Shown in pieces: positions 2,007 to 45,352 of a stretch of DNA of 64,000 nucleotides. The notes beneath the pieces are model-generated. The model worked only from the letters and a program-made list of their open reading frames with translations. It searched no databases and was not told the DNA's origin. The stretch lies in contig PGZF01000002.1 of the NCBI GenBank assembly GCA_002840125.1, forward strand, positions 372,001 to 436,000. The letters are read 5' to 3'. Numbering within the stretch: position 1 is the stretch's first letter; each line of letters begins with the position of its first letter. The translations under genes were made by a program, and so were the position numbers. This DNA is from Gammaproteobacteria bacterium HGW-Gammaproteobacteria-15. GTDB lineage: Bacteria; Pseudomonadota; Gammaproteobacteria; Enterobacterales; Alteromonadaceae.

Positions 2007-2249
2007 TCAGGCAGCTTGTTTTTGAGTGACGAATTTATTTAACTGGCCAAAGTTTTCAAAGACGTCGGCGGATATTTCATCATCATTAATCTGGATACCC
2101 AGTTGCTCTTCCAGTTCGGTTATTACAGCAATAACTGCCATAGAATCAAACTCAGGAATAGCTCCCAGCAAGGGGGTATCGTCGGTAAATTGTTTATCTA
2201 TTTGCAAGACGGCGCGTAAGATATCAGCGAGAAGTTGCTGGTGTGGCAT
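2007..2249 (-). CDS. Acyl carrier protein, exosortase A locus type
   Basis: An 80-residue acyl carrier protein. The phosphopantetheine attachment serine is S36 in EFDSMAV, where most fatty-acid ACPs have DSL. The flanking helices are acidic as expected (EELEEQLGIQIND-like). It is divergent from the AMP-forming ligase gene at 2406, with about 156 bp between them. ACPs of this type are found beside that ligase and the PLP decarboxylase in a subset of XrtA loci. The cargo is not known. A role in fatty acid synthesis is unlikely given the context, and no fab genes are near. A holo-ACP synthase would be needed from elsewhere in the genome. Confidence 0.85.
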   Translation of the reverse strand: MPHQQLLADILRAVLQIDKQFTDDTPLLGAIPEFDSMAVIAVITELEEQLGIQINDDEISADVFENFGQLNKFVTQKQAA

Positions 2250-2405
2250 AATGCTTCCTTAAAATGACAGGTAGTTCCCTGATTTGCGTAAAAGGGGCCG
2301 CTGCGGTTAAACTACACAGAGTAGATAAATTACAGTCGGATTTTCCGCAAAACTGTTTTATTATTGCACACAAAGGGATAAAAAGTGAAAGGTCTGAAGG
2401 ATACT

Positions 2406-3998
2406 ATGACCAAAAATCTCCACGATATCGTTACCCAGTCTGCTGCACGTTTTCCTAAGCGTCCTGCACTGTACTTTAAAAATACCGCCTTAACTTATGC
2501 TGAACTTGCTTCAGGCGTAACAACAACTGCTGTGCAGTTGCAAGCGCAGGATGTTAAGCGTTTTGATCGGGTGGCGGTGTACCTGCCTAAACAATTTGAA
2601 ACCGTGTTCAGCCTGTTTGGCTGCGCAATGGCCGGTGCGGTATTTGTGCCGGTGAATCCGGGTTTAAAGGCGGCGCAGGTAGCCCATATACTGCAGGATT
2701 GTAATGTCCGGGTGCTGATTACCAGCAAAGACCGGCTGGCGACCCTGGAAGAAGAACTGCATTTGTGCAGTGATTTGCACACAGTGTTATTGACTGACGT
2801 TACTGAAGATATGAGCCCGCTGGCGCATATTCAGCTGAAGTCGTTTTATGCTGACGTCAGCCACAGAACATTGCAGTTATATCCGCATGCAACCGATCAG
2901 GATATGGCGGCTATTTTGTATACCTCGGGCAGCACCGGTAAACCCAAAGGGGTGGTGTTGTCACACCGCAACATGCTGGTGGGCGCTCAGAGTGTCTCCA
3001 GTTATCTTAACAATACAGCCGATGATGTATTACTGGCATTGTTGCCCCTGAGCTTTGATTATGGCCTGAGCCAGCTGACCACCGCGTTTTTAACCGGTGC
3101 CAGTGTTGTGTTGCTGGATTTTTTCCTGGTGCAGGATGTAGTGCGTACGGTGCAGCAGTACGGCGTAACCGGCATTGCTGCGGTACCGCCTTTGTGGGCG
3201 CAACTGGCCAAAGCAAACTGGGTTGAAGGCAGCACCGATACTGTGCGTTATCTGACCAACTCCGGTGGGGCTATGCCACAAGCTTTGCTGCAACAGCTGC
3301 AGCAGGTATTTAATAAGGCTGAACCCTATTTAATGTATGGTTTAACCGAGGCCTTCCGCTCTACCTATTTGCCGCCAGCCGAGCTGGAAAAGCGGCCCGG
3401 CTCTATGGGTAAAGCTATTCCCAATGCCGAGATTGTCGTTGTGCGTGAAGACGGCAGCTTGTGTGCGCCAAATGAGCCAGGAGAGCTGGTGCATCGCGGC
3501 CCTCTGGTTAGCCTGGGTTACTGGAATGCCCCGGATAAAACAGCCGAGCGTTTTAAGTTTGACCCGGTAGCACCTAAAGGTATCCAGCTACCGCAACTTG
3601 CAGTGTGGTCTGGCGATACGGTGCGCTGCGATGAAGATGGCTTTTTATACTTTATTGGCCGGCGCGATGAAATGATTAAAACCTCAGGTTACCGGGTTAG
3701 CCCTACTGAAGTGGAAGAGGCCGTTTATCAACTTAGCCCTGCACTGGTTGATGTAGCCGCCATCGGCGTACCTCACCCTGAGCTGGAGCAAGCCATTCTG
3801 GTGTTATTTGCCTGTAAAGACGGTAGTGAGCCTGACATTGCTAACTGGACAACCCAGCTAAAACGTAGTTTGCCTAATTTTATGCAGCCAAAAGCCTTAA
3901 TTGTGCAGCAGGGGTTGCCAAAAAATGCCAATGGTAAAATTGACCGTAAGCTATTGTCAGAGCAATACCGGGGTTATTTTAATGAGGCATCCAGATGA
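2406..3998 (+). CDS. Acyl-CoA ligase (AMP-forming), exosortase A system-associated
   Basis: An ANL-superfamily adenylating enzyme (about 530 aa) that activates a carboxylic acid as an acyl-adenylate and passes it to a thiol, CoA or the neighbouring ACP. The P-loop-like motif YTSGSTGKPKG is at residues 172-182. The A5 motif YGLTEAFRSTYLP, the A7 SGD (WSGDTVRCDEDGFLYFIGRRDE) and the C-terminal catalytic lysine region NANGKIDR are all present. ATG 2406 is preferred because homologues start at this point and AAGGA lies 5 bp upstream. A GTG at 2385 with its own AAGGG would add seven residues. The stop overlaps the next start by 4 bp (ATGA), implying translational coupling to the decarboxylase. It matches the XrtA-associated ligase family (TIGR03098 as I recall it). 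The substrate is unknown. Confidence 0.88.
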   Translation: MTKNLHDIVTQSAARFPKRPALYFKNTALTYAELASGVTTTAVQLQAQDVKRFDRVAVYLPKQFETVFSLFGCAMAGAVFVPVNPGLKAAQVAHILQDCNVRVLITSKDRLATLEEELHLCSDLHTVLLTDVTEDMSPLAHIQLKSFYADVSHRTLQLYPHATDQDMAAILYTSGSTGKPKGVVLSHRNMLVGAQSVSSYLNNTADDVLLALLPLSFDYGLSQLTTAFLTGASVVLLDFFLVQDVVRTVQQYGVTGIAAVPPLWAQLAKANWVEGSTDTVRYLTNSGGAMPQALLQQLQQVFNKAEPYLMYGLTEAFRSTYLPPAELEKRPGSMGKAIPNAEIVVVREDGSLCAPNEPGELVHRGPLVSLGYWNAPDKTAERFKFDPVAPKGIQLPQLAVWSGDTVRCDEDGFLYFIGRRDEMIKTSGYRVSPTEVEEAVYQLSPALVDVAAIGVPHPELEQAILVLFACKDGSEPDIANWTTQLKRSLPNFMQPKALIVQQGLPKNANGKIDRKLLSEQYRGYFNEASR

Positions 3999-5254
3999 GT
4001 AGTACCCTGAACACAGAAACACGGCCACAAGCGCCGCAGCATGAGCTTATGTCGCAATTTAGCTGTCAGGGCGATAATTTGCTGCTGGGCGGCTTCAGCC
4101 TTACTGCTATTAGCACTATGCTGGGCAAAACCGTGTTTTATGCTTACGACCGCCAAGTTATAAACCAACAGATCCAACGTTTCAGGGCGGCAATTCCTGG
4201 CAGAATTAAGCTGCACTATGCGGTAAAAGCCAACCCATACTGGCCTGTTGTGCAGCATATGCGCCCGTTGGTGGATGGTTTTGATGTTGCATCACAAAAA
4301 GAAATGCTACTGGCATTACAAAGCGGTATGCCGGTAGCCGATATCAGTTTTGCCGGCCCCGGTAAAACCGATACGGAGCTTGCCGCTGCTATTACAGCTG
4401 GCGTAACGCTAAATGTAGAATCGGCCGGTGAGTTGCAGCGTATTTGCCGGTTGGGTGAACAGCATAAGGTCATACCACAGGTAGCACTGCGGGTTAACCC
4501 GGCGTTTGAGCTTAAAGCTTCTGGCATGAAAATGGCCGGTGGCGCTAAGCCTTTTGGTATTGATGAAGATCAAGTGTTTGAGCTACTGACCCAGATTGCC
4601 GCCATGCCGGTGAAGTTGCGTGGGTTTCATATTTTTTGCGGCTCGCAAAATCTAAAAACTGAAGCACTGACAGAAGCACATCAGCTTACGTTTGATCTGG
4701 CGGCTAAACTGGTTGCCGCTTGCCCATACCGGCCTGATTTGATCAATTTGGGTGGTGGTTTTGGTATTCCTTATTTTCCCGGCGAAAAACGGCTTGATTT
4801 ACAGCCTATTGGTTTATCGCTTAAACACCTGCTACAACAATACGAGCAAGCCCTTGCCGGTATAGAGCTGGTAATTGAGCTTGGCCGTTATCTGGTAGCA
4901 GAAGCTGGCGTTTATGCTTGCCAGGTGGTGGATAAAAAAGTGTCGCGGGGCACAACCTATCTGGTGTGTAACGGTGGTTTACATCATCATCTGGCAAATT
5001 CCGGCAATTTTGGCCAGGTGATCCGTAAAAATTATCCGGTAGCTATTGGCAATAAAATGCAGCAAGCTGCTGCTGAACCGGTAACAGTGGTGGGGCCTTT
5101 ATGTACGCCACTGGATATACTCGCAGATAAAGTCAACCTGCCGCAGGCTGACATAGGAGACTGGGTAGTGGTGTACCAGTCTGGGGCTTACGGGCCCACT
5201 GCAAGCCCACAGGACTTTCTTGGCCATGCAGCAGTGGCGGAGATTTTACTGTGA
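3995..5254 (+). CDS. PLP-dependent decarboxylase, exosortase A system-associated
   Basis: A fold-type III (alanine-racemase-like barrel) decarboxylase of 419 aa, related to diaminopimelate and ornithine decarboxylases. K78 in HYAVKAN is the expected Schiff-base lysine. The glycine-rich phosphate-binding motif NLGGGFGIPYFPGE follows in the middle. A late GPLCTPLDIL carries the cysteine that in relatives enters the partner active site, followed by YQSGAYG. It overlaps the ligase gene by 4 bp. The likely product is an amine made from an amino acid, which the ligase/ACP pair could attach to another group. It resembles the family described as TIGR03099. A true LysA role is less likely because the genetic context is entirely exopolysaccharide. 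Confidence 0.87.
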   Translation: MSSTLNTETRPQAPQHELMSQFSCQGDNLLLGGFSLTAISTMLGKTVFYAYDRQVINQQIQRFRAAIPGRIKLHYAVKANPYWPVVQHMRPLVDGFDVASQKEMLLALQSGMPVADISFAGPGKTDTELAAAITAGVTLNVESAGELQRICRLGEQHKVIPQVALRVNPAFELKASGMKMAGGAKPFGIDEDQVFELLTQIAAMPVKLRGFHIFCGSQNLKTEALTEAHQLTFDLAAKLVAACPYRPDLINLGGGFGIPYFPGEKRLDLQPIGLSLKHLLQQYEQALAGIELVIELGRYLVAEAGVYACQVVDKKVSRGTTYLVCNGGLHHHLANSGNFGQVIRKNYPVAIGNKMQQAAAEPVTVVGPLCTPLDILADKVNLPQADIGDWVVVYQSGAYGPTASPQDFLGHAAVAEILL

Positions 5255-5284
5255 TCTTATAACCACTAAACAGAGAACTTCAAC

Positions 5285-6337
5285 ATGGCTAAGGACAGTC
5301 AGATAGGGAAAACCTTATTACTGGCCCTGCTGTTGTTTGTACTGATGGAATTTGTGCTGCAAGTAAGGGCGCAGCTAAAGTTTGGCAATAGCATTCTTAA
5401 CGCCGCCTTTGCTGACAGTGCACAAGCTGTTTCTCTTTTTGTGCAACATGATGGCTATCAGCTGCTGGCACCGGATATCGAATTTGCCGGCAGCAGCATT
5501 AAGGTACAAAGTAATCAACTGGGGCTGCGCTCTGCAGCTGTCGGAGCAAAAACAAGCAGTACTACCAGAGTTATCGCGCTTGGCGCGTCGAGCACTTATG
5601 GTGCTTATGCGGCTACCAACGATGATACTTTTCCGGCGATATTGCAGCGCATCAGCACCGATATGCCGCTTGAGGTCATTAATGCCGGTATACCGGGAAA
5701 TGATATTGGCAGCCAGTATTTGTTATATGCCGGGCAACTGGCGGGCTTGTCAGAAGATGTATTAATTCTTTATTCTGGTTTAAGCAACGATATTGGCCGG
5801 CTGTGTCAGCGTAGCAACAGCGCTAAAAGTTATGCCTTGCCGCAGTTACCAGCACCAAAATGGCTATTAAGCGTGGATTTACTGTTGAAAAACAGCACAG
5901 ATTTACGCTACGTGCCATACAAGCATTCCCCGATGCCTGACCTTAGCCCCTACCTGCAGCAATATGCTGCCTCTCTAAGGCAAATAGTTAATCTGGCGCA
6001 ACAGCGACAGGTAAAAACCATATTGTTTGCGGAAAATTTGCGCTCCTTTCGCAAAGATCAGCCACTGCAGTTACAGCAGCAACTGGCCGCTTCAGCACTT
6101 TATTACACGCCGTGTTTAACAGTCGGACAGTTTTCTGAGGTGTTTGAACAGTACAACCAGGTGCTACAGCAAGTAGCTGCTGAGTTCATTGATGTGCATT
6201 ATGTCAGTTTGTCCGGGCAGGTGCCCGGTGGGCGCGAATACTTTACTGACAGCGTGCATTTTTCAGCTAAAGGTGAGCAGGCTGTTGCTGCTGCGCTGGC
6301 GCAGGTATTAAAAGATACGCGGCAGGTAGCACCATGA
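5285..6337 (+). CDS. Membrane-anchored SGNH/GDSL-type hydrolase or O-acetyltransferase partner
   Basis: 350 aa with an N-terminal membrane anchor (about residues 8-24), then a periplasmic SGNH domain. The nucleophile block is LGASSTYG with S102 as candidate. Block II is NAGIPGND, the Asn block is GLSNDIGR, and the catalytic Asp/His pair is in TDSVHFSAKG near the C-terminus. The stop overlaps the MBOAT gene by 4 bp. In alginate and related systems an SGNH-fold protein works with an MBOAT protein to O-acetylate polysaccharide in the periplasm, so the coupling argues for an acetyl-transfer role. A deacetylating esterase is the alternative. An ATG at 5285 follows AGAGAACTTCAAC, a weak ribosome site. 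Confidence 0.8.
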   Translation: MAKDSQIGKTLLLALLLFVLMEFVLQVRAQLKFGNSILNAAFADSAQAVSLFVQHDGYQLLAPDIEFAGSSIKVQSNQLGLRSAAVGAKTSSTTRVIALGASSTYGAYAATNDDTFPAILQRISTDMPLEVINAGIPGNDIGSQYLLYAGQLAGLSEDVLILYSGLSNDIGRLCQRSNSAKSYALPQLPAPKWLLSVDLLLKNSTDLRYVPYKHSPMPDLSPYLQQYAASLRQIVNLAQQRQVKTILFAENLRSFRKDQPLQLQQQLAASALYYTPCLTVGQFSEVFEQYNQVLQQVAAEFIDVHYVSLSGQVPGGREYFTDSVHFSAKGEQAVAAALAQVLKDTRQVAP

Positions 6338-7725
6338 GTTTTACGTCATTTCAGTTCTACGTGTTTTTAATTGCTTTGGTTATTTTGCTGCGGCTGATTC
6401 AGCACAACGGCCAGAAGAAGATGCTGCTATTGCTGGCCAGTTACTGGTTTTATATGAGCTGGGATTGGCGTTTTGGTGCTTTGCTGTGCGCTATGACAGT
6501 AGTAAATTTCTACTGTGGCCGGTTAATTCGTTACTCGGCAAGGCCCAAAATCTGGCTGGCGGTATCGCTGCTGTTTAGTTTAGGTGTGCTGGGGCTGTTT
6601 AAGTATTTTAATTTCTTTCTTGTTAATCTGGATGCCGTCGCTTCCATGCTGGGCATGTCGTCGCATATTAATATTCTGCATATTATTTTGCCGGTGGGGA
6701 TCTCGTTTTATACGTTTCAGGCGTTGTCGTACACCATAGATATTTATCGCCGGCAGCTGGACCCTGTTGATTCGCTGGCCGACTTTGCACTGTTTGTATC
6801 GTTTTTTCCGCAACTGGTTGCCGGACCAATAGTGCGCGCCAGTTATTTTCTGCCGCAACTGGCGCAGCATATCCCTGCTGACAGCGCTGCACAGCAGGAA
6901 GGGGTTATGCTTATTATCCGCGGCCTGATCAAAAAAGTACTGCTGGCAGATATACTGGCGCTGCATTTGGTTGACCCGGCCTTTACGGACTATGCTAACC
7001 ATTCTTCCGCGTTTTTAGTGCTGGCATTAATAGGTTACAGTTTTCAGGTGTATATGGATTTTTCCGCCTATACCGATATTGCCAGAGGCTGCGCCCGTTT
7101 ACTGGGTTATCAGTTGCCTGTAAATTTTAACCGGCCTTACCTGGCCGACAGTATTTCTAATTTCTGGCAGCGCTGGCATATTTCTATGTCGTCTTTTTTC
7201 CGCGACTACCTTTACCACGGGCTGGGTGGCAGTAAACGCGGTAATGTTTATATCAATTTGGTACTCACCTTTGTTGCCATAGGGGTATGGCATGGGGCAG
7301 GCTGGAATTTTCTGCTTTATGGTTTATGCCATGGCGTGTTGGTTGCGTTTGAGCGCTATATGCGTAAGTACGGCTGGTTTGGCAGTCAAACAGGTTGGCG
7401 CTGGGCGCTCTCAGTGCTAAGAACGTTTTTTCTGGTATGTTTATTAAGGGTAATGTTCAGAGCTGAAGATCTGCATCAAGCCGGAGGGTACCTGCAGGCT
7501 ATCTGGCATAACATGGCATTATCATTTCATCTTACTACTGTCGGTGCCGTTGCGTTACTGGTGGCAGTATTATTGCACCTGATCCCGCAGCATTATATTG
7601 CGTTATGGCAACAACGTTACCTGACCATACCACAACTACTACAGGCTTCAGTTGTCGTACTGTTACTTTACAGTATGCTTATGCTGGGATCGGGCGAAGC
7701 GCCTTTTATTTATTTCCAGTTTTGA
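6334..7725 (+). CDS. MBOAT-family O-acyltransferase (AlgI-like)
   Basis: A polytopic membrane protein of 463 aa with about ten hydrophobic segments. Diagnostic MBOAT motifs are present: PVGISFYTFQALSYTIDIYR near residues 110-130, the FNRPYLADSISNFWQRWHISMSSFFRDYLY block, and GVWHGAGWNFLLYGLCHG containing the catalytic histidine. AlgI-type proteins move an acetyl group across the inner membrane onto a periplasmic acceptor. The start overlaps the upstream SGNH gene (ATGA), and a sulfotransferase gene follows 61 bp later. Together these suggest a decoration cassette for the exopolysaccharide. The acyl group (acetyl versus other) is inferred. Confidence 0.9.
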   Translation: MSFTSFQFYVFLIALVILLRLIQHNGQKKMLLLLASYWFYMSWDWRFGALLCAMTVVNFYCGRLIRYSARPKIWLAVSLLFSLGVLGLFKYFNFFLVNLDAVASMLGMSSHINILHIILPVGISFYTFQALSYTIDIYRRQLDPVDSLADFALFVSFFPQLVAGPIVRASYFLPQLAQHIPADSAAQQEGVMLIIRGLIKKVLLADILALHLVDPAFTDYANHSSAFLVLALIGYSFQVYMDFSAYTDIARGCARLLGYQLPVNFNRPYLADSISNFWQRWHISMSSFFRDYLYHGLGGSKRGNVYINLVLTFVAIGVWHGAGWNFLLYGLCHGVLVAFERYMRKYGWFGSQTGWRWALSVLRTFFLVCLLRVMFRAEDLHQAGGYLQAIWHNMALSFHLTTVGAVALLVAVLLHLIPQHYIALWQQRYLTIPQLLQASVVVLLLYSMLMLGSGEAPFIYFQF

Positions 7726-7786
7726 ACACACCAGTCATTGGAGTGTGAATAACCGGCAACATAGCGCTGTTAATAAGGATATTTTA

Positions 7787-8749
7787 ATGACGAACAAACA
7801 CTGTATTTTGTTATTTGGCATGCCCCGTTCCGGCACTACCTGGCTTGGTAAACTGTTTGATGCACAGCGCCAGACGTACTATTTGCATGAGCCAGACAGC
7901 GTACAGCCGAATATGGCTATTCCGTTATTGTTAAAAGCAGAGGAAGCAACACAGTATCCGCTGCAGTCACAACTTGAGTTATGGTTTGCCAGCAAAGCGG
8001 AAAAAGTTATAGCCTCGCGGCCGTTTTTTGCCAAAGACTACCTAAATCCGCTTAGTTGGCTGTTGTTTCTGGGCAGCGCATACGGCACTAAAATAGCTGG
8101 CCGCTTAGGAGCGCCACGGTTTATTAAGCCATTACGGTTGCAATCTGCGCAGCAACAGATCGTCTGGAAGTCAATCGAGTCGCTTGGCCGCATGGCGGCG
8201 ATTAAACAACTGGTGCCGGCATACAGCATTCATATATTACGCCATCCGTGCGGCCATATTGCCTCTACATTAAAAGGGCAGGACGCCGGCTTATTTGATG
8301 GTGGTTTGCCCATCTGGGAAGATTGGGATCTGTACAGTAAATTACTGCAGCAAAGTGGCGAGCAGCGTTTTAGCCTGGACAGCTTAAAGCAAATGAGTAA
8401 GGAAGAGCGGCTGGCAGTACGCTGGGGTATTATTAATGATTTTGCCCTGGCGCAATGTGCAGGTGACAGCAGCAACATGGTACTGATATATGAAAACTTG
8501 TGTAAAAACCCACAACAGGTGTTGCAGCAGTGTCTGGCATTTTGTGGCTTAAAAGCAGATCAGCAATGCCTGCAATATCTGGCGCAGTCGGTACATGGCA
8601 GCGACAACAGTGCTTATTACAGTACCACTAAAGACCCGTTGCAATCTGCCTATAAGTGGCGCAAACAACTGCCTGATGACGTGCAGCTACGGATAAAAAA
8701 TATCGTGCAGCAGTTTAACGCCGGGCACTATTACCATGATGATTTTTAG
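7787..8749 (+). CDS. Sulfotransferase family protein
   Basis: 320 aa starting at ATG 7787, chosen because AAGGAT lies 7 bp upstream and because the frame before it (open from 7652) runs through the end of the MBOAT gene without similarity. The 5'-phosphosulfate loop FGMPRSGTTWL is at residues 10-20, and the 3'-phosphate motif ILRHPCGHIAST lies near residue 150. PAPS-dependent enzymes of this fold move sulfate to hydroxyls or amines of sugars, lipids or proteins. No PAPS synthesis genes are visible here. It follows the O-acetylation pair in the same direction, so a surface sugar is the likely acceptor. Its stop overlaps the end of the convergent gene at 8746. Confidence 0.82.
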   Translation: MTNKHCILLFGMPRSGTTWLGKLFDAQRQTYYLHEPDSVQPNMAIPLLLKAEEATQYPLQSQLELWFASKAEKVIASRPFFAKDYLNPLSWLLFLGSAYGTKIAGRLGAPRFIKPLRLQSAQQQIVWKSIESLGRMAAIKQLVPAYSIHILRHPCGHIASTLKGQDAGLFDGGLPIWEDWDLYSKLLQQSGEQRFSLDSLKQMSKEERLAVRWGIINDFALAQCAGDSSNMVLIYENLCKNPQQVLQQCLAFCGLKADQQCLQYLAQSVHGSDNSAYYSTTKDPLQSAYKWRKQLPDDVQLRIKNIVQQFNAGHYYHDDF

Positions 8750-10044
8750 TTTGCTGCCAGCTCTTGCTGGCTGTTATATAGCTTTAATGCGTTAATGCGC
8801 CGGGTAATCTCCTGTTCCAGCTGTTTAAAACCTGTGCCGTTATAACCGCCAAGCTGTTGTTGTAATTGTTGTTCAGTCAAACCTTCGGGTAAATCCTGTG
8901 TTGGCGGCATTATCGCTTGCTCAAATGTCAGGCTGTTAAACTGGTTCAACCGTTGCGGCGTTACTGATGCTAAGTGCTCAGCAAAATGGGTTCCGGCTCT
9001 GTCTGCTGCCAGGTCGACAAAGCTGAAGCCCGAGCCTCCACTGTCTCTGTCTGCATCCATAATTTCTTTCAGATTGCCAATTTGCTGTGATAGCTGAGTG
9101 TTACCCAACATTTGCAGCACGGCTGAATACAAAAAGTGCAAGCTGAGGTCACGCCGGCCATTAAGCAACATAGGTGGCATATTCGGTACCTGGTGCAGCT
9201 TTACGTCAGGGTTGGCGTAATAAATAAATCTTTTGTTGGCAAAGGCTACAGCCAGAGCCCAAAGTGCGTTTTTATACTCGGTTTCTAAATCGCTGTTGTC
9301 TGAGCGGTTTATAGCAACAAGTAACAGTTTGTGGGCAAAAAATGCCAGCCGGCGCTCGCGTTTATGCTGGCGTTGTAACTGTTTTAACTGCTGCAGATAA
9401 AATTCAACATCTGCTGCCGCGCTTTGGGCCGGGCCAAAACCAAATGGACGATGAATTTGCGGATGCAGGCTTAGTTTAATCGGGCTGGCATTGGCCGCCT
9501 CAAAATGCAGACGGTTGTTTATCAGCTCGCCTCTGGCGAATAAGGCCAGCAACTGCTGATCTGCCGGTGTGGCAATAACAGTGCGCACCATTAGCTTTAG
9601 CAATGGGTTAGCAACCCAGCCCGGTAGTTTTATTGCGCCCAGTTTGCAGTGTTCAATAGCGAAACCTTTGTCTGATGGCATAAATAAACAGGATGTTTGT
9701 ATACCGCGCCTGGGCCAGCTTAGCGGCAGGTTGGCCTGGCCATGCAAAGCTACGCCAAACGGATTAAGCACACCACTAAACTCTACTTGTGGCAGGGCAT
9801 AGCTGGCCACGTTCATTAGCGCATCCAGCTGTGTTTGATCAAAGATCAGTTTTATATTGCCGCCCGGCTGCGCCAGATGCTGCACCGTGTCAGACAGCAC
9901 ACGCTGCGCCGTGGTAACATCGCTGGCTTCTATAGTACGCTGTGATAACACCGGTTTTGATGTAATAAGAAAAAACAACGCCACGGCAAGCACTGCCAAT
10001 AACACTACGCTGCGCAAAAAATAGCGCGATAACCTGTTTAGCAT
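8746..10044 (-). CDS. Uncharacterised membrane-anchored periplasmic protein
   Basis: I do not recognise this 432-residue protein. One N-terminal hydrophobic helix (about residues 10-28) follows positively charged MLNRLSRYFLR, so most of the protein should be periplasmic. The middle has a long amphipathic, Q/K/R-rich helix (FYLQQLKQLQRQHKRERRL). A conserved-looking glycine and aspartate motif (GGSGFSFVDLAADRAG) lies near residue 345, and the tail is Q-rich and helical. It lies 7 bp downstream of the VanZ-repeat gene, in the operon that begins with hydrolase 2. That points to a role in assembly or export of the same product, but no catalytic residues can be assigned. Confidence 0.7.
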   Translation of the reverse strand: MLNRLSRYFLRSVVLLAVLAVALFFLITSKPVLSQRTIEASDVTTAQRVLSDTVQHLAQPGGNIKLIFDQTQLDALMNVASYALPQVEFSGVLNPFGVALHGQANLPLSWPRRGIQTSCLFMPSDKGFAIEHCKLGAIKLPGWVANPLLKLMVRTVIATPADQQLLALFARGELINNRLHFEAANASPIKLSLHPQIHRPFGFGPAQSAAADVEFYLQQLKQLQRQHKRERRLAFFAHKLLLVAINRSDNSDLETEYKNALWALAVAFANKRFIYYANPDVKLHQVPNMPPMLLNGRRDLSLHFLYSAVLQMLGNTQLSQQIGNLKEIMDADRDSGGSGFSFVDLAADRAGTHFAEHLASVTPQRLNQFNSLTFEQAIMPPTQDLPEGLTEQQLQQQLGGYNGTGFKQLEQEITRRINALKLYNSQQELAAN

Positions 10045-10051
10045 GGAATGG

Positions 10052-12388
10052 TTAAGCCCCTGAACCAGAGAATTTTACATTGCGCCGCAGCGCTAAAGCC
10101 GGAATAAAAAACCAGCACAACAGCCCAAGCAGTGTGATAAACGCCAGGCTGTAGCGCATAAATAATTGCAGCGGAGCGGCATATTGGGTTCTGTCCGTAC
10201 TGAGCAAAAACTGTAGCGCTGAATAAGCTTGCTGGTATTTGACGATAACACTTTCAGTGGCATTTTGCAGCAACCACCAGGACAGTGGCAGCCCAAATAC
10301 GATAAGCAGTGGCAGATATTTCCAGCGGGTGGGCACCGGGGTACAGCACTGCTGAGCTAAATAAGCGGCAAGGCTAAACAACAACATCAGCCACGCAGTC
10401 AGTGCTGTTATGGCAGCCAGGCTGCCGCCGTCTGCCAATAGTTCAACAATATTGTCAGTTGCGGCCATTTTTACTACGGCCAGATACCAGAACAACGCCA
10501 CAGCAGCATTCGCCCCGAGCCATAAAATGGTGGCGGGTATTTTGCTACGGCTGTAAATAAATTGCAGTGCTGCCATACAGTTAAACTGGAACAGGCTAAA
10601 AAAGCCGATAAAACGCAGCATTAGCTCAATGGCCCGTGGCAGCGTTGTTACCGGGGCGCCAACAATGTCATGCAGTGATTCTGTCGGTACGGTGGCATAC
10701 AGCAGCCAGAATATAACCAGGCTCTGCGTAACACACTGTAGTGGGGCCCAGAGGATAAAACGGGCATAGCTGTTAAAGCTCAACACTGCGGGCATAGCCA
10801 GCAGGTATAGCATCAGGCACAAACCAGGAATAGCACTGATATTATCGCTTAGCAGTTCCCGCACATTGTAGGGTAATGCCGGCAACTGGCTTAATAAAAA
10901 CATGACCAGCATTGATACAGCCAAATGGCTGCCGAGCTTTATGTACAACCCTGATGCTGGTTTCGCGGCTATCGGGGTTGATAAGCCAGGTGGTACGGCA
11001 TGGAGGGGATTAACCCCAGCGCTGTCTGGCTGGTGCAGGCGATTAGCGAAAAAAACAGTAAAACCAAAGCCTGCTGCAGCACCACCTATTTGCAGTATGG
11101 CATCGGTAATATCCACAGTTTTACCGGGCAATGCCAGCTGCATGCCCTCGCATAATAATGCCAAGCTAATGACATAAATACTGCCAACAATCTGCAAGGT
11201 TTGTTGCTGCCAGCGCAGTGACAACCTGTGCTGAAACAGCGCCAGTAATACCCCAAGCGGGAGAAATGCCAGCAGTTTTTGCAGCAGTGCAGTAATAGCA
11301 CGGTACTCAGTGCCAAAGTACAGCGACTCCAGCAGCACCTTGCCCTGTGCAGCCTGCAGCCGCTGGTTGATAAAAGCCCAGTCAAAATTAAAGTTAAATG
11401 GATACCAAAACAGCATTAAAAGCAGCAGGCTGTACAGCACAATGGCACCTGGCCACAGTAACCACGGCGTGAGTTTTGCCGTTGGACCGGCAATATTGCT
11501 GGCCGGGCTGCGTTGCCACAAACGCAACAACGTTACGCTAAGCCAGGTGGCTATTAAGGCGCAGAGTACATCACTGATATCGGTAACCCGGCTGTATACA
11601 AACAGCTGGCAAAACTCCAGCAGCAGCGCCAGTAACAGCACCTTACCGTACAGCTTTATGCCAGCCTGCTGTTGCTGCAGATACAACAGCACCGCGATAG
11701 GGCACCACAACAGAATATCGCTGAGGACCGCATAGCCAATGTCGGCAGCCGAGCCGCGGTAGCCCGCAAATGGCAGCAGCACAATACGGCCTTCACGCCA
11801 CTTTTTATACAGCTCTACCGGGCTTAAGGTCAGGTCCAGCGGTAACAGGTTGTACAGGACAAACATAGCAACATAGCCAATTAGCAGGTAAGTAACTACC
11901 GAAGCCTGGCCACGGATAAGCGCCAGCGAAGTTAAAAACTGTTTTAACTGACGGCCTCTGAAGCAGTACAGAATGATGCCCAGCATGGCACCGGTGGCTT
12001 CAGCAATAATATCGTTAATGGACACTGTACGCTGCGGGAAATACAACTGGGTAAACTCTATGCTAACGGCTAAAGCGGCGCAAAACAGCCAGATAACACC
12101 AGCCAGTACCAGATTTACAGCAGTTGCGCCGGGGCGGAAACTAAGCGCACAAAGTAAAAAAGCAAAGGGGACAAACAGCAGAATATTGGCTACCCAGTCA
12201 GCCCGTGAGCGTATGCCAAGCTGCAGATACGGAATTTGCCAAAAGCGTTCTATTGCGTCGTTAAACGGCAGCGCGACATAACGCAAAGGCACCAGGCTGC
12301 CGTAAATAATAAAGGCCAGATAAAGCACACAAGCCAGCAGCAACCATTTGTGCAAAGCGGCTTCGTTGTTCGTGCTGTGCATAAGCAT
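10052..12388 (-). CDS. Polytopic protein with three tandem VanZ-like domains
   Basis: 778 aa, largely membrane-spanning. The VanZ core can be read three times with the same spacing: E111/Q114/R120/D126, E258/Q261/R267/D273, and E414/Q417/K423/D429. Each is preceded by hydrophobic helices of the type ANILLFVPFAFLL. After about residue 450 another 330 residues of transmembrane sequence follow, without the motif. VanZ proteins are single-domain and poorly understood (teicoplanin resistance; many sit in surface-polysaccharide loci). The start at 12388 has GGGAG close upstream; an ATG two codons later is equally possible. It sits between hydrolase 1 and the uncharacterised protein gene in one leftward operon. 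Confidence 0.85.
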   Translation of the reverse strand: MLMHSTNNEAALHKWLLLACVLYLAFIIYGSLVPLRYVALPFNDAIERFWQIPYLQLGIRSRADWVANILLFVPFAFLLCALSFRPGATAVNLVLAGVIWLFCAALAVSIEFTQLYFPQRTVSINDIIAEATGAMLGIILYCFRGRQLKQFLTSLALIRGQASVVTYLLIGYVAMFVLYNLLPLDLTLSPVELYKKWREGRIVLLPFAGYRGSAADIGYAVLSDILLWCPIAVLLYLQQQQAGIKLYGKVLLLALLLEFCQLFVYSRVTDISDVLCALIATWLSVTLLRLWQRSPASNIAGPTAKLTPWLLWPGAIVLYSLLLLMLFWYPFNFNFDWAFINQRLQAAQGKVLLESLYFGTEYRAITALLQKLLAFLPLGVLLALFQHRLSLRWQQQTLQIVGSIYVISLALLCEGMQLALPGKTVDITDAILQIGGAAAGFGFTVFFANRLHQPDSAGVNPLHAVPPGLSTPIAAKPASGLYIKLGSHLAVSMLVMFLLSQLPALPYNVRELLSDNISAIPGLCLMLYLLAMPAVLSFNSYARFILWAPLQCVTQSLVIFWLLYATVPTESLHDIVGAPVTTLPRAIELMLRFIGFFSLFQFNCMAALQFIYSRSKIPATILWLGANAAVALFWYLAVVKMAATDNIVELLADGGSLAAITALTAWLMLLFSLAAYLAQQCCTPVPTRWKYLPLLIVFGLPLSWWLLQNATESVIVKYQQAYSALQFLLSTDRTQYAAPLQLFMRYSLAFITLLGLLCWFFIPALALRRNVKFSGSGA

Positions 12389-12430
12389 CCTGCTCCCTGG
12401 CTTTATTTAACCGAACGGTATCAACAGCAT

Positions 12431-13273
12431 TTACTTTGTGGCTTGCACAAAATTATAGCTTTGTTGCTCAACCTGCTCCCGCCAGCGCGCGCTGGAAAAA
12501 GTATGGCTGGCATCGCTAATAGGGTAGTGCCCGGCATCCCGCAAACATTTGCCCCAGGCTGGGTTGTCGACACATAGTTGCAAGAATTCCTGTGCAGTCA
12601 GATCGTTACCACTGCTTATCAGCAGCACTTTGCCGTTAAATTGCTGCCAGCCACTAAGCATAGCGGCAACATAGTTTTGCTCTGTTACTGTAAGCTGGGC
12701 CGTCGCGGCGACAGTGGTAGTTTTGCTGGCCCGTAATGTCTGCCAGAACGAGCTGATGCTGCGACGCAGCGCCAAACCGCCGCCAAATAGTTTATGCCAG
12801 AATTGCCGGCTTAGCAGGCGCTTTAAATAATAGTGTTTGAGCATGGCTTTGGCGTGGCTTTGCTGCTGGCGCACCCAGGGGTTTAGCAGTATTACACCAC
12901 TGATGCGTGGATCTGGCCGGTTGAGTTTAATCAAAATGGCACTGGCAGCATCGCAAAGGCCCCATAGCACCACCTGTGTTAGCTGCGGGCACTGCTGAAA
13001 AAAAGCATCAATCGCCAGTTCAATATCTGCCGTTTGCTGATAAAACGCGGCTTTACTACCGCTGCTATCGCCCATGCCGGCAGTATCCAGCCGCATTGAT
13101 GGTACGCCCTGAGCCGCCAGATAGCGGCTTAGTTTAACAAACTGCCTGTGGCTGCCAACACGGTACTGTGGCCCGCCAACAATCAGTAATACGCCGGTTG
13201 TTGCCGGGGCCTGATGCACAATAGCGCTTAGCTGATAACTGGCGCCAGCCAGGCTGATGTAGTGTTCAGTCAT
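12431..13273 (-). CDS. Alpha/beta hydrolase 1, exosortase A system-associated
   Basis: 280 aa with an alpha/beta-hydrolase fold: an early VGGPQYRVGSHRQF block, then RLDTAGMGDSSG, then a nucleophile elbow. The elbow reads WGLCDAAS, so C107 occupies the position normally taken by serine. A late histidine follows in DAGHYPISD. The family I match it to (TIGR03100 type) is restricted to XrtA loci and its substrate is unknown. It overlaps the hydrolase 2 gene by 8 bp. A cysteine nucleophile would suit thioester chemistry, for example release or transfer from the ACP at 2007-2249; that is an inference. Confidence 0.85.
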   Translation of the reverse strand: MTEHYISLAGASYQLSAIVHQAPATTGVLLIVGGPQYRVGSHRQFVKLSRYLAAQGVPSMRLDTAGMGDSSGSKAAFYQQTADIELAIDAFFQQCPQLTQVVLWGLCDAASAILIKLNRPDPRISGVILLNPWVRQQQSHAKAMLKHYYLKRLLSRQFWHKLFGGGLALRRSISSFWQTLRASKTTTVAATAQLTVTEQNYVAAMLSGWQQFNGKVLLISSGNDLTAQEFLQLCVDNPAWGKCLRDAGHYPISDASHTFSSARWREQVEQQSYNFVQATK

Positions 13274-14096
13274 GCTGCGCCCCTTCAGTTAAGTATTGCT
13301 GGGTAAGGGCAATAAGTTGCTCTGCGCTGGCCAGCTCTGCCGTTTGCCAGTAGGGTTCGGCCTTTAGCTGGGTATAATTTAGCTGGCAGTGTTGCTGTAA
13401 CTGCTCGCGCATTTTTTGTACCGGTAAGGCCACGGTATCCAGCTGCGATGTTTCCAGCCAGTGTAGTTTTATGTCGTTTAGCTGCGCCGGAGTGTTGCTG
13501 TTGATATCAAGCAGGCTGTGATAAAACGCCGGGCTAATCGGGTAACCGGCAATTTCAATATTTTCACCTTCGCTTAGCTGCAGCTCCAGATCTTTTTGGC
13601 TGATTTTATTGCCTGCCGCCATGGCCTCGGCCACTTTTAACCGTACAAACTGTTGCCAGAATTTACTGACATCAAATACCGGCTGCCATAACACCAGTTG
13701 CTGCACCGGCAAGGGTAAAGTGTGTTTATTCATTAAATCGAACAGTTGTATAACGCCAAAGCGTACCGCAATAAAGTTGATGCTTTGGTAACCCTGTTGC
13801 TGCAACAGCACTAATAACTGGCAGAGATCGTCACGCCAGATGTCTATGCTGGCCTGATCTAAATCAGCGGCGCTGTCGCCGGTGCCATAATTATCCAGCA
13901 TAAAGCAGCTGTAACCGGCCGCAGCCAATTGCTGCATAGCCGCGTTTAGCAGATGACGGGATTTATTCATTTCTTCGGCAAACGGTGGAATAACTATAAC
14001 AGCACTGCCATTACCCTCGCTGTTTTGCAGGGTGCGAAGAAATAACTGCCGCTGATTCAGCTGAATAAAACCGGTACTGAGGTGCTGTTGTTGCAC
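13266..14096 (-). CDS. Alpha/beta hydrolase 2, exosortase A system-associated
   Basis: 276 aa. The signature PPFAEEMNKSRH near residues 37-48 and MLDNYGTGDSA near 67-76 match the second XrtA-linked hydrolase family (TIGR03101 type). Where the nucleophile elbow should be, the chain reads FIAVRFGVI with R112, so neither serine nor cysteine is available. The protein may be non-catalytic, or may use a different residue. It is the first gene of the leftward operon hydrolase 2 - hydrolase 1 - VanZ repeat - uncharacterised protein, and is divergent from the DegT aminotransferase gene. Confidence 0.84.
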   Translation of the reverse strand: MQQQHLSTGFIQLNQRQLFLRTLQNSEGNGSAVIVIPPFAEEMNKSRHLLNAAMQQLAAAGYSCFMLDNYGTGDSAADLDQASIDIWRDDLCQLLVLLQQQGYQSINFIAVRFGVIQLFDLMNKHTLPLPVQQLVLWQPVFDVSKFWQQFVRLKVAEAMAAGNKISQKDLELQLSEGENIEIAGYPISPAFYHSLLDINSNTPAQLNDIKLHWLETSQLDTVALPVQKMREQLQQHCQLNYTQLKAEPYWQTAELASAEQLIALTQQYLTEGAQHD

Positions 14097-15344: not shown

Positions 15345-16349
15345 TTATTTTGGCGCGGGTTTGTGTTTAAAGTTGGCAATAGCGTTCGTCAGCGCCTTTA
15401 GTTTGCCGCGCCATGTCCGCTTATTGCATAGCTGAATACCATAAAGTGTCTGTTTTGCTGACATCCAGTCTTTTTTATAATCGTCATTGCCGGTAAGAAA
15501 ATCTACTGTGTTAACGTTATCCCGGCATATCACATGCTCAAGCAGTGCGGCTGTCAGCACAGTTCCCGGGCTGAAGCGGGTAAAGTCTTTGTTATAAGCC
15601 AGTTTGAAAATGGCTGCCGTTTTGTCGTACACAAACCAGATTTGCGCCGCTATCGGTTCATTGTTGTAGTAAATGACCCCAATGCGCAGGGCATTGATTT
15701 GCCAGTTATGCTGGCATATACAGTCAATAAAGGCCGGAGTGGGTTCAGAACGTTTCCAGCTGTGGTAATACACCTGATGGTAATCAATCAGGGCCTGCAT
15801 CAGTACCTCTGCAGAACCTTCGCTGTATACTTTAACGGTAAAGTTACCGTCTTTATTCATCAGCTCTTGCTTACGTTTCAGCGTATTTTTCAGCTGACTG
15901 GGCCGGCGTTGCCAGTACTGCGCTAAGCTGGTGATATTGGGTTCATACCAGTTTACCGAGTGTTGGTAAATAAAACCCTTAAAGCCTAATGTGGCAAAGC
16001 TTTGGCACCAGGCTTGTGCCTGGTTGTTGTAAAGCGGCAGAATATTAATGTAATCATAGGCTGAGAATATACTGGCGTGTTGTTGCAATGTCTCCGCACA
16101 GGGCAAAGTAGCTATCGGCTGCCCGGCAATACCATAGATTGGCGAGTAGTAATTCGTCATGCTGTCCAGGATATTATCAGGCTGGTTTGGGGTGCTGCTA
16201 AAAAAAGCAAGGCCGGCATGCGCGGTTAAAGGCAGGCTAAAGTTGTGTTTGTTATGGTTTACATGCTCTGCAAAAGCACTGAACCAGTAGTTGCAGACAA
16301 ACACCGGCGGTAAAGCTGAGGGGCTCTGTTGTATGGCTGGCTCTGTCAT
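15345..16349 (-). CDS. BioF2-like GNAT acyltransferase (second of tandem pair)
   Basis: 334 aa. The C-terminal half has the GNAT layout seen in BioF2/FemAB-like proteins: a basic LKNTLKRKQELM helix, then IGVIYYNNEPIAAQIWFVYD, AIFKLAYNKDFTRFSPGTVL (acceptor/CoA-side loop) and a final VDFLTGNDDYKKDWM. Such proteins add acyl or aminoacyl groups to amines. The start overlaps the end of the upstream, related gene by 4 bp, so the two are probably translated together. It is one of three acyltransferases of this broad type in the locus (with 16346-17416 and 35267-36295). The acceptor is unknown. Confidence 0.78.
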   Translation of the reverse strand: MTEPAIQQSPSALPPVFVCNYWFSAFAEHVNHNKHNFSLPLTAHAGLAFFSSTPNQPDNILDSMTNYYSPIYGIAGQPIATLPCAETLQQHASIFSAYDYINILPLYNNQAQAWCQSFATLGFKGFIYQHSVNWYEPNITSLAQYWQRRPSQLKNTLKRKQELMNKDGNFTVKVYSEGSAEVLMQALIDYHQVYYHSWKRSEPTPAFIDCICQHNWQINALRIGVIYYNNEPIAAQIWFVYDKTAAIFKLAYNKDFTRFSPGTVLTAALLEHVICRDNVNTVDFLTGNDDYKKDWMSAKQTLYGIQLCNKRTWRGKLKALTNAIANFKHKPAPK

Positions 16350-17416
16350 GGTTCAGCCACCTCTGCCACGGGTTTTTTCTTCAGTTTTTGCTTTAGCCGG
16401 GTTAATAATTGTAAGGTGTTGCCAAAGATGTTTTCTGCATACACGGTGCCGTTGTAGATAGAGCGGGTGTCGGTGGCCCATTCAAGCTGTTCTGGTGAGG
16501 CGTTAGTATAAAAATCGATTACTTTTACGCTGTGGTTGTCAAACAGCGTATGCAGGATCTGTTTTAACAACAGCCTGCCCAGCGCGAAGCTTTTAAACTC
16601 TTCATCAAAAGTTGTTTTCAGAATAATCAGCATATCGTGTTTGATGCAACATAGCCTGGAGGCCACAAGCCGGTCTTGTATGTAGTATTCATAAACCATG
16701 GCATTGTTCTGCTGCGCCAGCTGATATAAAAAATCGCGGTAGAACTGGCCTTGCCGGTTGCTGGGATGCAGGGCCGTACCGAGTTTACCTTTCCAGCCTT
16801 TAGATTCGATCATGCCGTAGCGATCTACCGCAGACTTAATATGTTGCGCACTACTGATCTGGCGAAAATCGAGTGTTGTATTTTCACGTTGCAGGCGGTT
16901 TTCATAGCGTGACATATTTTTACGCAGGTTTTTTGACCGTAACTGCCAATAGCTGTCGAAGCCGTCTTGCAACTTGATCTGCATATTAGTGGCATAAAAC
17001 GCCTGCTGATGATCATGCAGTACATTGAGTAGCGCCAGATGTTCTGCCGGATCCAGGCTGAGAAAATCGATACGGGCTGCTATGCCCGGTAATGCGCTAA
17101 GTAATGCCGTTACATCTGGTGTAAATGCCGGATTTATTAGCAGCAAACCAACCTGGGCCTGGCTGGGTTTATATAGCTCCCAGATCAGTTTGTTGCGCTG
17201 TCGCAGCAACATCAGACATTGCACTTGCCCCTGCCGGATGGCACGTACCTGGTATAACGGTGTATGGCCAAAATACCCTAATAATGAGGTCAGAAACTCA
17301 GTGCCAAGTAATTGATTATTGCCATGATAGCTATTGCTTAACAGGGTCCAGTCCGCAAAAAACTGCGGATCGTTCATATCAAACAGCTGTACTTGCCAGT
17401 AAACCGGGTCAGACAT
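16346..17416 (-). CDS. BioF2-like GNAT acyltransferase (first of tandem pair)
   Basis: 356 aa, similar in layout to the next gene: SKNLRKNMSRYENRLQRE basic helix, YEYYIQDRLVASRLCCIK, TTFDEEFKSFALGRLLLKQIL, then VIDFYTNASPEQLEWATD. These are the features of the BioF2/FemAB-like GNAT group. It overlaps the polysaccharide deacetylase gene upstream by 8 bp and the following acyltransferase by 4 bp. An N-deacetylase followed by two N-acyltransferases suggests removal of acetyl groups from amino sugars and replacement by another acyl or aminoacyl group; this is inference from order. Confidence 0.78.
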   Translation of the reverse strand: MSDPVYWQVQLFDMNDPQFFADWTLLSNSYHGNNQLLGTEFLTSLLGYFGHTPLYQVRAIRQGQVQCLMLLRQRNKLIWELYKPSQAQVGLLLINPAFTPDVTALLSALPGIAARIDFLSLDPAEHLALLNVLHDHQQAFYATNMQIKLQDGFDSYWQLRSKNLRKNMSRYENRLQRENTTLDFRQISSAQHIKSAVDRYGMIESKGWKGKLGTALHPSNRQGQFYRDFLYQLAQQNNAMVYEYYIQDRLVASRLCCIKHDMLIILKTTFDEEFKSFALGRLLLKQILHTLFDNHSVKVIDFYTNASPEQLEWATDTRSIYNGTVYAENIFGNTLQLLTRLKQKLKKKPVAEVAEP

Positions 17417-18353
17417 GTGCAGGCTTGGTATAGTTGAGGGTTAGCCGGCAGTGGAATTTCAGCGGGCTTTTATCCCAGGGGGTAAAGCGGTTTAGCAAAT
17501 GGGGCGGGGTAGCTGCGGTGCAAATGCCCCAATTAGTAATAACCGCGCTGCTAAAACCGGCTTCGGCAACCAGTTTTACCGTAGTGTCATCAAAATCAGT
17601 ATCTTTCACCCCGTTAGGGTAGGCAAAATGCTGTACAGGTTTGCCCAGCCAGTTTTCCAGCTGCTGCCTGGATTGGCTAATTTCCTGTAACTGCTGTTCT
17701 TCAGGCATCACTTTTAAAATAGGGTGGTTTACCGTATGGGCGCCAATGGTAACGCCGCTGTCAGATAGCTGTTTTATCTGCGCTGGTGACATCATCAGTG
17801 GCTCTTGCTCGGTAGCATTATTTTGCTGATAAAACTGGTCAATTTTTTCCAGCCGCTGCGCTATTGGCAGGTATTTTAATTTTTTCAGCCATTGCTGCGC
17901 TTTACTGCGCCGGTCTGCGGCGTCCGTTAAGGGTAGCTGCGTATCACCCAGTTGCAGCTGCTGGCGCTCAGGTTGTGAAAACAGATAAATCAGCCGGTCA
18001 TTCCACATATTGCTACCCTGGCTGAAAGCCGTGGCAACATACACCGTGGCCGGAATACCGTATTTAGCCAGTATTGGCTGGGCTACTGTCAGGTTATTCA
18101 GATAACCATCGTCAAAGGTAACACACACTGCATTGGCGGGCAGGGTATTATGCTGCAGATGTTGCAACGCATCCTGCAGTGGCAGTGGGGTAAAATAGTC
18201 GCGCAATAAGCGCATTTGCCAGTCGAACACCTCTGCGGTAGGTTCGCTGGGCCGCATTGGATCGGGCTTTGCCAGTACCTGATGATAAATCAGAATACTC
18301 AGCTTATTCCGGCCAAGCAATTTACCGGTAACTTGCAGTATTTTATGCAACAT
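17409..18353 (-). CDS. Polysaccharide deacetylase (NodB homology, CE4)
   Basis: 314 aa from ATG 18353, preferred because GAGG lies 6 bp upstream and because longer versions of the frame only run back through the neighbouring gene. The NodB motif 1 is VTFDDGY (D81, D82), and the metal histidines are in GAHTVNHPIL. A later HFAYPNG and a late AVITNWG complete the fold. It removes N-acetyl groups from polysaccharide amino sugars, or O-acetyl groups from sugars. No signal peptide is evident, so the site of action (cytosolic intermediate or non-classical export) is open. It overlaps the asparagine-synthetase-like gene by 11 bp. Confidence 0.86.
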   Translation of the reverse strand: MLHKILQVTGKLLGRNKLSILIYHQVLAKPDPMRPSEPTAEVFDWQMRLLRDYFTPLPLQDALQHLQHNTLPANAVCVTFDDGYLNNLTVAQPILAKYGIPATVYVATAFSQGSNMWNDRLIYLFSQPERQQLQLGDTQLPLTDAADRRSKAQQWLKKLKYLPIAQRLEKIDQFYQQNNATEQEPLMMSPAQIKQLSDSGVTIGAHTVNHPILKVMPEEQQLQEISQSRQQLENWLGKPVQHFAYPNGVKDTDFDDTTVKLVAEAGFSSAVITNWGICTAATPPHLLNRFTPWDKSPLKFHCRLTLNYTKPAHV

Positions 18354-20142: not shown

Positions 20143-20186
20143 TATGGTATTCCTTACTTTATTACAGTTAACAATCATTGTTTCAC

Positions 20187-25803: not shown

Positions 25804-25886
25804 CAGCTTTTATCCTGCCTGTCAGCCCAATATAACAGGTAGCACACCGCGACTATGGCCGTTAACAGGTAAAAACTGTCGATCAT
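25803..25886 (-). CDS. 27-residue single-pass membrane peptide (previously unannotated-size ORF)
   Basis: Reading leftwards from ATG 25886, 27 codons encode MIDSFYLLTAIVAVCYLLYW followed by a charged ADRQDKS tail. That is one membrane helix of about 17 residues (YLLTAIVAVCYLLYW) with a charged C-terminus. The ATG overlaps the stop of the CapK-like gene as ATGA, and the stop overlaps the start of the O-antigen-ligase-like gene as TGATG. The frame therefore fills the entire gap exactly. AAGG lies 10 bp upstream within the preceding gene. The precise fit at both ends is strong evidence for translation. It may be a small accessory subunit of the ligase or polymerase, or a device to pass ribosomes on. 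No homologue is known to me. Confidence 0.72.
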   Translation of the reverse strand: MIDSFYLLTAIVAVCYLLYWADRQDKS

Positions 25887-44973: not shown

Positions 44974-45049
<76 letters not shown>

Positions 45050-45063
45050 AGATTTTTTCGTGC

Positions 45064-45139
45064 GTCCCCTTCGTCTAGAGGCCTAGGACACCGCCCTTTC
45101 ACGGCGGTAACAGGGGTTCGAATCCCCTAGGGGACGCCA
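45064..45139 (+). tRNA. tRNA-Glu (anticodon TTC), copy 1
   Basis: 76 bases with encoded CCA. Acceptor stem GTCCCCT/AGGGGAC, anticodon stem CCGCC/GGCGG around CTTTCAC (anticodon TTC), T-arm AGGGGTTCGAATCCCCT. It lies 14 bp after the tRNA-Ala. Confidence 0.97.
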
Positions 45140-45171
45140 ATTAATCTGCAATTTTGAATGAATGTCTTTGC

Positions 45172-45247
45172 GTCCCCTTCGTCTAGAGGCCTAGGACACC
45201 GCCCTTTCACGGCGGTAACAGGGGTTCGAATCCCCTAGGGGACGCCA
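45172..45247 (+). tRNA. tRNA-Glu (anticodon TTC), copy 2
   Basis: Identical in sequence to copy 1, separated from it by 32 bp. Same anticodon TTC and encoded CCA. Confidence 0.97.
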
Positions 45248-45276
45248 CTTCATCATTCATTGTCATCTGTTACTGT

Positions 45277-45352
45277 GTCCCCTTCGTCTAGAGGCCTAGG
45301 ACACCGCCCTTTCACGGCGGTAACAGGGGTTCGAATCCCCTAGGGGACGCCA
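45277..45352 (+). tRNA. tRNA-Glu (anticodon TTC), copy 3
   Basis: Identical to copies 1 and 2, separated from copy 2 by 29 bp. The downstream 84 bp before tesA show no clear intrinsic terminator. Confidence 0.97.

Follow-up and report, generated by a model that had tools for sequence, protein, structure and literature searches.

The 64,000 nucleotides analysed here (the window; C2:372001-436000 of the 4.68 Mb genome of Gammaproteobacteria bacterium HGW-Gammaproteobacteria-15) hold a set of five genes, adjoined by genes for a surface sugar polymer, which encode an acyl carrier protein (ACP), an AMP-forming ligase, a pyridoxal phosphate (PLP)-dependent decarboxylase and two alpha/beta hydrolases. 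As judged from sequence and distribution, these five genes probably (roughly 0.6) make an amine-bearing acyl group on a carrier protein reserved for this purpose and pass it on. In the suggested reaction sequence, an amino dicarboxylic acid would first be activated by the ligase via the carboxyl of its side chain and attached to the ACP; L-aspartate, reacting through its beta-carboxyl, is the likeliest such acid. The amino acid, still tethered to the ACP, would next lose its free alpha-carboxyl through the action of the decarboxylase, which would yield beta-alanyl-S-ACP, or the gamma-aminobutyric acid (GABA) thioester GABA-S-ACP if glutamate was loaded. Finally, Cys107 of hydrolase 1 would pick up the acyl group from the ACP, and the enzyme would hand it to an acceptor, for which an exopolysaccharide sugar, or an amine on such a sugar, is the candidate, whereby hydrolase 2 would serve as a non-catalytic partner. 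The parts of this sequence are held with unequal firmness: decarboxylation on the carrier is considered highly probable, the odds for aspartate as substrate and beta-alanine as product group are judged to be even, and for hydrolase 1 a role in transfer is put forward over mere hydrolysis tentatively, at somewhat less than even odds. The five genes are located as follows.

2007-2249, minus strand: standalone ACP of 80 amino acids, PF00550; attachment residue Ser36, codon 2142-2144
2385-3998, plus strand: AMP-forming ligase TIGR03098; D225 codon 3057-3059, R325 codon 3357-3359
3995-5254, plus strand: PLP decarboxylase TIGR03099, BtrK-like; PLP lysine K78, codon 4226-4228
12431-13273, minus strand: alpha/beta hydrolase 1, TIGR03100; C107 codon 12953-12955, D224, H257
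13266-14096, minus strand: alpha/beta hydrolase 2, TIGR03101-like; R112 codon 13761-13763 at the nucleophile position

An earlier reading of the letters, referred to as the first-pass annotation, had described an ACP, a ligase overlapping a PLP decarboxylase and two hydrolases at these positions, and family scores confirm this, as the profile matches do for the family numbers TIGR03098 to TIGR03101 that it had given. The ligase (726.7 bits, cut-off 592.35), the decarboxylase (591.9 bits, cut-off 478.45) and hydrolase 1 (296.9 bits, cut-off 168.45) are members of TIGR03098, TIGR03099 and TIGR03100, and the ACP scores 29.5 bits against the PF00550 cut-off of 20.8. For hydrolase 2 the sole family match is TIGR03101, at 188.6 bits and hence under the cut-off of 202.75; it was named TIGR03101-like because it lies beside hydrolase 1 and has an Arg as in that family. 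The ligase and decarboxylase reading frames overlap by 4 bases and the two hydrolase genes by 8 bases; the ligase starts with GTG, and an in-frame ATG follows 7 codons downstream. So far these four families have been named by the company they keep alone: the literature searched, beyond whose reach most subscription papers lay, yielded no product or mutant for them, and a term search of PMC1569441 and PMC9850573 returned zero occurrences of ligase, decarboxylase or hydrolase terms.

Evidence for an amino acid as ligase substrate comes from the binding pocket. With the full-length ligase the multi-domain protein LgrA reached the top summed score in the PDB, its best single domain however scoring 153 bits as compared to 232 for 3wvn. 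With the pocket segment, 3wv4 and 3wvn came first (E 1.1e-23), the next protein following at 4.9e-14; both entries are VinN according to a table in PMC11253843. In the account given in passages of that paper, VinN uses D230 for the amino group, has the bulky residues F231 and S299, and possesses a loop that is one residue shorter and carries K330 and R331. The pocket alignment with VinN is ungapped through this loop (numbering was matched by counting from the printed chain numbers, with an offset of 16) and pairs D225 with D230, Y226 with F231, S293 with S299, F324 with K330 and R325 with R331. The window ligase thus has the Asp, the aromatic residue, the Ser, the Arg and the equal loop length of VinN and lacks its Lys. 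Across 94 distinct ligases D225, F324, R325 and K518 are invariant and the VinN loop length is likewise kept in all 94, whereas position 226 is occupied by Y (67) or A (27) and position 293 by S (66) or T (28). The pocket patterns of the 93 ligases besides that of the window are YTS (64), AAT (21), ATT (6), YSS (1) and YTT (1), and pockets with A226 and T293 are exemplified by L077, L087, L109 (Zoogloea), L101, L111 (Accumulibacter). Two pocket types imply that not all of these ligases need use the same acid, and possibly two substrates are involved. The genome itself served as control: TNS was found in none of its 16 other AMP-binding regions, among its 13 nonribosomal peptide synthetase (NRPS) domains the Asp is kept in 12 and followed by an aromatic residue in none, and Arg occupies the loop position in none of the 15 scorable regions (L145 was misaligned and left unscored), the NRPS domain L134 having an Arg one residue later. 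NRPS adenylation domains of this genome lie in the long open frames G000:C1:1481439-1495160 and C7:517620-540954. As far as sections of PMC11284099 report it, in the vicenistatin pathway VinN loads 3-methylaspartate onto the standalone ACP VinL and VinO decarboxylates only the thioester, while FlvN of the fluvirucin B2 pathway uses aspartate.

The decarboxylase points to the same kind of chemistry. Its best PDB match is BtrK (E 4.5e-69), which bears the title L-glutamyl-[BtrI acyl-carrier protein] decarboxylase; 6knh, presumably SbnH, follows at 2.8e-48, and then diaminopimelate decarboxylases, the best being 3c5q at 1.2e-32. A profile built from 19 family members ranks them alike (BtrK 368 bits, 6knh 251, diaminopimelate decarboxylases 239), and in a FastTree phylogeny of these 19 members, 7 LysA proteins, BtrK and 6knh, BtrK is placed next to the family, with 6knh and LysA beyond. 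K78, CTPLD and H332 each occur in 99 of 99 distinct members, the motifs of BtrK being CTPED and GGMHHH; the LysA signature consists of CE[ST]xD (7 of 7 LysA proteins) plus DAAMNDL, and the family, with CTPLD throughout, does not have these diaminopimelate decarboxylase segments. The family is hence closer to BtrK than to diaminopimelate decarboxylase in score and carries CTPxD, not CE[ST]xD. A separate LysA (L002, TIGR01048, 505 bits) is encoded in the same genome. The window decarboxylase is 80% identical to its Rheinheimera lutimaris homologue, which makes a relative of Rheinheimera or Arsukibacterium the probable source of the DNA. PLP decarboxylases require a free alpha-carboxyl and amino group, and because of this requirement loading would have to proceed via the side-chain carboxyl, whereby conversion of beta-aspartyl-ACP into beta-alanyl-ACP is the best reading and that of gamma-glutamyl-ACP into GABA-ACP the second.

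That the carrier is dedicated to this module is suggested by its distribution. Its best PDB sequence match is 2lki (E 1.9e-13), and Ser36, which sits in a DSM motif, is kept in 58 of 58 distinct family members. Gene neighbourhoods were surveyed in 100 loci, namely 20 regions from the genome sample together with the 80 top-ranking ones out of at least 574 from named genomes (L043/L117 and L034/L099 are duplicate contigs). Ligase and decarboxylase are adjacent in 89 of 95 loci and hydrolase 2 and the ACP in 33 of the 42 having both, while in Rheinheimera-type loci the ACP adjoins the ligase rather than the hydrolases (L054 has one of each); in L156-L164, 9 loci whose hydrolase cassette stands apart from the decarboxylase, the cassette is invariably accompanied by an ACP, which scores weakly in L162. 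Co-occurrence was assessed in 229 genomes of the class, the identical set being searched with every family (decarboxylase at E 1e-100, ACP at no less than 60 bits, hydrolase 2 at no less than 130 bits; all P values ignore kinship). The decarboxylase is present in 29 genomes, 27 of them above the TIGR03099 cut-off, and the ligase in 31, 27 of which are shared; a decarboxylase without a called ligase was seen in G158, which holds a divergent ligase, and in G164, at a contig edge. The ACP was called in 26 genomes, all within the 29 decarboxylase genomes (hypergeometric 2.8e-31), and in 24 of the 24 decarboxylase genomes with a completeness of 90% or more and a contamination of 5% or less, those without it (G008, G038 and G164) being 75, 81 and 87% complete. 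Outside the decarboxylase genomes its top score was 48 bits (G045). The 31 ligase genomes divide into 25 with both decarboxylase and ACP, 2 with the decarboxylase only, none with the ACP only and 4 with neither (Fisher 4.8e-4); these last 4 contain no ACP of at least 60 bits, G212 reaching 40.5. It is hence the decarboxylase, rather than the ligase alone, that the ACP accompanies. ACP and decarboxylase reside on different contigs in 10 of the 26 genomes, and some of these contigs may be chromosomal neighbours.

For the last step the two hydrolases were considered. Cys107 and Arg112 occupy the nucleophile elbow in the sequences and in the structure models, as the first-pass annotation had stated, and this holds family-wide: in hydrolase 1 C107 is found in 43 of 43 distinct members and D224 and H257 in 42 each, and in hydrolase 2 R112 is found in 42 of 42, with no His at the last triad position, which is W250 in 39. 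Both models are confident alpha/beta hydrolases, with a predicted local distance difference test score (pLDDT) of 87.3 for hydrolase 1 and 90.0 for hydrolase 2; the fold matches are lipase 9h0z and myristoyl-ACP thioesterase 1tht, respectively, each with a template modelling (TM) score of 0.62. The intact Cys-Asp-His set supports the earlier idea that the Cys hydrolase could act on a thioester, and hydrolase 1 is proposed to be an acyl-Cys transferase or thioesterase, hydrolase 2 a conserved pseudoenzyme and its non-catalytic partner; together they would remove the acyl group from the ACP. The two genes are adjacent on the same strand in 41 of 41 loci. Hydrolase 1 occurs in 21 of the 229 genomes, all inside the 29 decarboxylase genomes (hypergeometric 1.6e-23), and hydrolase 2 in the same 21, with weaker matches (82 to 123 bits) in 5 other genomes outside the set. 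The hydrolases also go with the exosortase XrtA, found above cut-off in 18 of the 21 decarboxylase genomes with hydrolases vs 0 of the 8 without (Fisher 3.8e-5), and with TIGR03019 (20 of 21 vs 3 of 8; Fisher 0.0025). Adjacency and co-occurrence taken together bear out the earlier view of ligase, ACP, decarboxylase and hydrolases as one acyl-activation and carrier module.

A number of findings weigh against the reaction sequence outlined above. In all 94 ligases F324 replaces VinN K330, and in 27 of them the aromatic residue is lost (A226), nearly always together with the exchange of S293 for T. The BtrK substrate is gamma-glutamyl, not beta-aspartyl, and VinO and FlvN are likened to the module by description and not by sequence. 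The ACP lies within the surveyed stretch at 57 of the 100 loci (46 of the 70 flanked by 8 kb or more on each side), the whole-genome ACP search accounting for much of the loci without a visible one. The 4 of the 31 ligase genomes that lack TIGR03099 (G077, G120, G204 and G212; L149-L152) have LysA-level TIGR03099 matches only and keep the same pocket, which suggests that the ligase can function without this decarboxylase; among the 10 proteins neighbouring the ligase in L149, L151 and L152 none is a decarboxylase, a count which covers the neighbourhood of the ligase in these three loci, and one may lie elsewhere in the genomes. The hydrolase fold matches are general lipases and esterases with TM scores of about 0.6, which are blind to transfer vs hydrolysis, and the co-occurrence P values take no account of the relatedness of the genomes.

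Other routes were weighed. A BtrI/BtrK-type route, in which the ligase loads glutamate via its gamma-carboxyl and the decarboxylase yields GABA-S-ACP, would fit the title of the nearest solved decarboxylase; it is nevertheless regarded as unlikely, as the loader resembles VinN and not an ATP-grasp ligase like BtrJ, and as the VinN-type pockets covered in portions of PMC11284099 accept beta-amino acids or aspartate. Still less probable is a decarboxylation of the free amino acid, the resulting free amine then becoming the acceptor or the ligase substrate. The fold family is indeed rich in enzymes for free amino acids (diaminopimelate, ornithine and lysine decarboxylases), and a decarboxylase that separately supplies an amine was what the first-pass annotation had assumed; this assumption is disfavoured, as the residues are BtrK-like, the diaminopimelate decarboxylase signature is missing, and the ACP tracks the decarboxylase within the ligase genomes rather than the ligase alone. 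An ACP that serves an N-acyl amino acid synthase of family TIGR03694, with the ligase being a fatty-acid ligase, was rated the most improbable of all. Such a gene is found in this genome near the XrtA locus (G000:C2:366071-366772, 242 bits), 7.2 kb before the ACP and 5.2 kb before the window, a link of such synthases to PEP-CTERM systems is cited in a part of PMC7293339, and in G107 some 270 bases separate the gene from that of hydrolase 1. TIGR03694 is however above cut-off in 9 of the 29 decarboxylase genomes, without contrast between those with hydrolases (8 of 21) and those without (1 of 8; Fisher 0.37), and the Asp for the amino group is kept in all 94 ligases. A second TIGR03694 copy of this genome is located at G000:C1:1440293-1440958 (181 bits).

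The more serious alternative concerns the hydrolases, which could be housekeeping proteins, namely a proof-reading thioesterase that clears misloaded ACP and its structural partner, with transfer left to a different enzyme, e.g., the FemAB-like TIGR03019 protein. Neither hydrolase is present in 8 of the 29 decarboxylase genomes, so that the core can do without them, and TIGR03019 accompanies nearly all hydrolase genomes; a clearing enzyme would however not be expected to track XrtA, and Cys nucleophiles are often favoured for transfer. This alternative is deemed doubtful, and transfer by hydrolase 1 is retained as the tentative last step. As to the acceptor, a link to protein sorting was conceived by analogy with sortase A, which joins protein to a pentaglycine amine, and with the archaetidylethanolamine acceptor proposed for archaeosortase: the hydrolases would move the beta-alanyl group to a glycan or lipid carrier, and its amine would accept PEP-CTERM proteins from XrtA, exosortase A joining the cleaved protein to it. 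This is a long shot. Among 45 XrtA genomes 27 are without the decarboxylase, and one genome of the same family, G139, carries XrtA but not the module; the beta-alanyl amine would hence be at most one of several XrtA acceptors, and the module an addition to some XrtA systems.

Within the window XrtA itself is encoded at 32590-34176 (TIGR03109, 295.7 bits vs a cut-off of 208), which identifies an XrtA/PEP-CTERM locus; together with genes for a FemAB-like protein (TIGR03019) and for glycosyltransferases of that system it takes up 32590-36295. Between decarboxylase and hydrolases lie genes for a GDSL/SGNH protein, an MBOAT protein, a sulfotransferase, one protein that matched neither Pfam nor NCBIfam, and a single protein of 778 amino acids (10052-12388, minus strand) in which VanZ occurs in three stretches. 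The acetylation and sulfation genes that had been noted there are thus present, but, by the loci survey and close relatives, they are not conserved with the set: MBOAT, SGNH, VanZ and the unassigned protein are near the decarboxylase in 5, 2, 11 and 1 of the 100 loci, the sulfotransferase was outside this survey, and the position of the intervening genes is not kept among close relatives; in the relative L055 the hydrolase 1 frame starts about 10 bases past the decarboxylase end, tail to tail. A ligase-decarboxylase fusion, considered for open frames of 938, 993 and 981 amino acids (L008, L019 and L028), was dismissed, the ligase being in another frame. Further genes of the window are two adjoining GNAT/FemAB-like proteins without curated family (15345-17416, minus strand), relatives of which also lie near some related cassettes (e.g., L036, L044, L045, L057, L061), an asparagine-synthase-like protein (18343-20178, minus strand; nearest TIGR03108 at 235 bits vs a cut-off of 817), a second AMP-forming ligase, PaaK/FlxY-like and under all curated cut-offs (25883-27241, minus strand), and a tRNA cluster with one Ala and three Glu tRNAs (44974-45352, plus strand).

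If the proposed sequence holds true, one testable series of reactions could be assigned to the four hypothetical families and to a carrier protein as yet unnamed, and carrier-bound amino acid decarboxylation would extend from antibiotic pathways to cell-surface polymer loci. These loci belong to many Gammaproteobacteria in the broad sense, including the floc and biofilm formers Zoogloea, Thauera and Accumulibacter, and the polymer would be predicted to bear an amine-carrying decoration.

Among known systems, the NCBIfam hypothetical equivalogs TIGR03098 to TIGR03101 are the same families, named for XrtA association only, while 11 of the 29 decarboxylase genomes lack XrtA above cut-off. The system of the archaeosortase ArtA, a distant relation of XrtA, with PssA and PssD is similar in that the amine-bearing group used in sorting would come from a decarboxylase, PssD, as a passage of PMC7157517 speculates; unlike the present module, it involves a lipid serine head group and neither ACP nor ligase. 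Butirosin biosynthesis provides the nearest solved decarboxylase, with an amino acid on an ACP (BtrI/BtrK) and shared CTPxD and GGxHHH motifs, but differs in its gamma-glutamyl substrate and its loader, BtrJ being an ATP-grasp ligase and the loader here an AMP-forming one. The closest likeness of overall design is to VinN/VinL/VinO and the FlvN pathway, where an AMP-forming amino acid ligase, a standalone ACP and a PLP decarboxylase acting after loading are combined, as is proposed here for the VinN-like ligase and its partners. The module keeps VinN D230, R331 and the loop length and differs by the K330 to F exchange and by the loss of the aromatic residue in part of the ligases; unlike the vicenistatin pathway it is not used by a polyketide synthase, no VinK-type transferase was recognised among its five genes, and instead it comes with two hydrolases and resides in exopolysaccharide loci.

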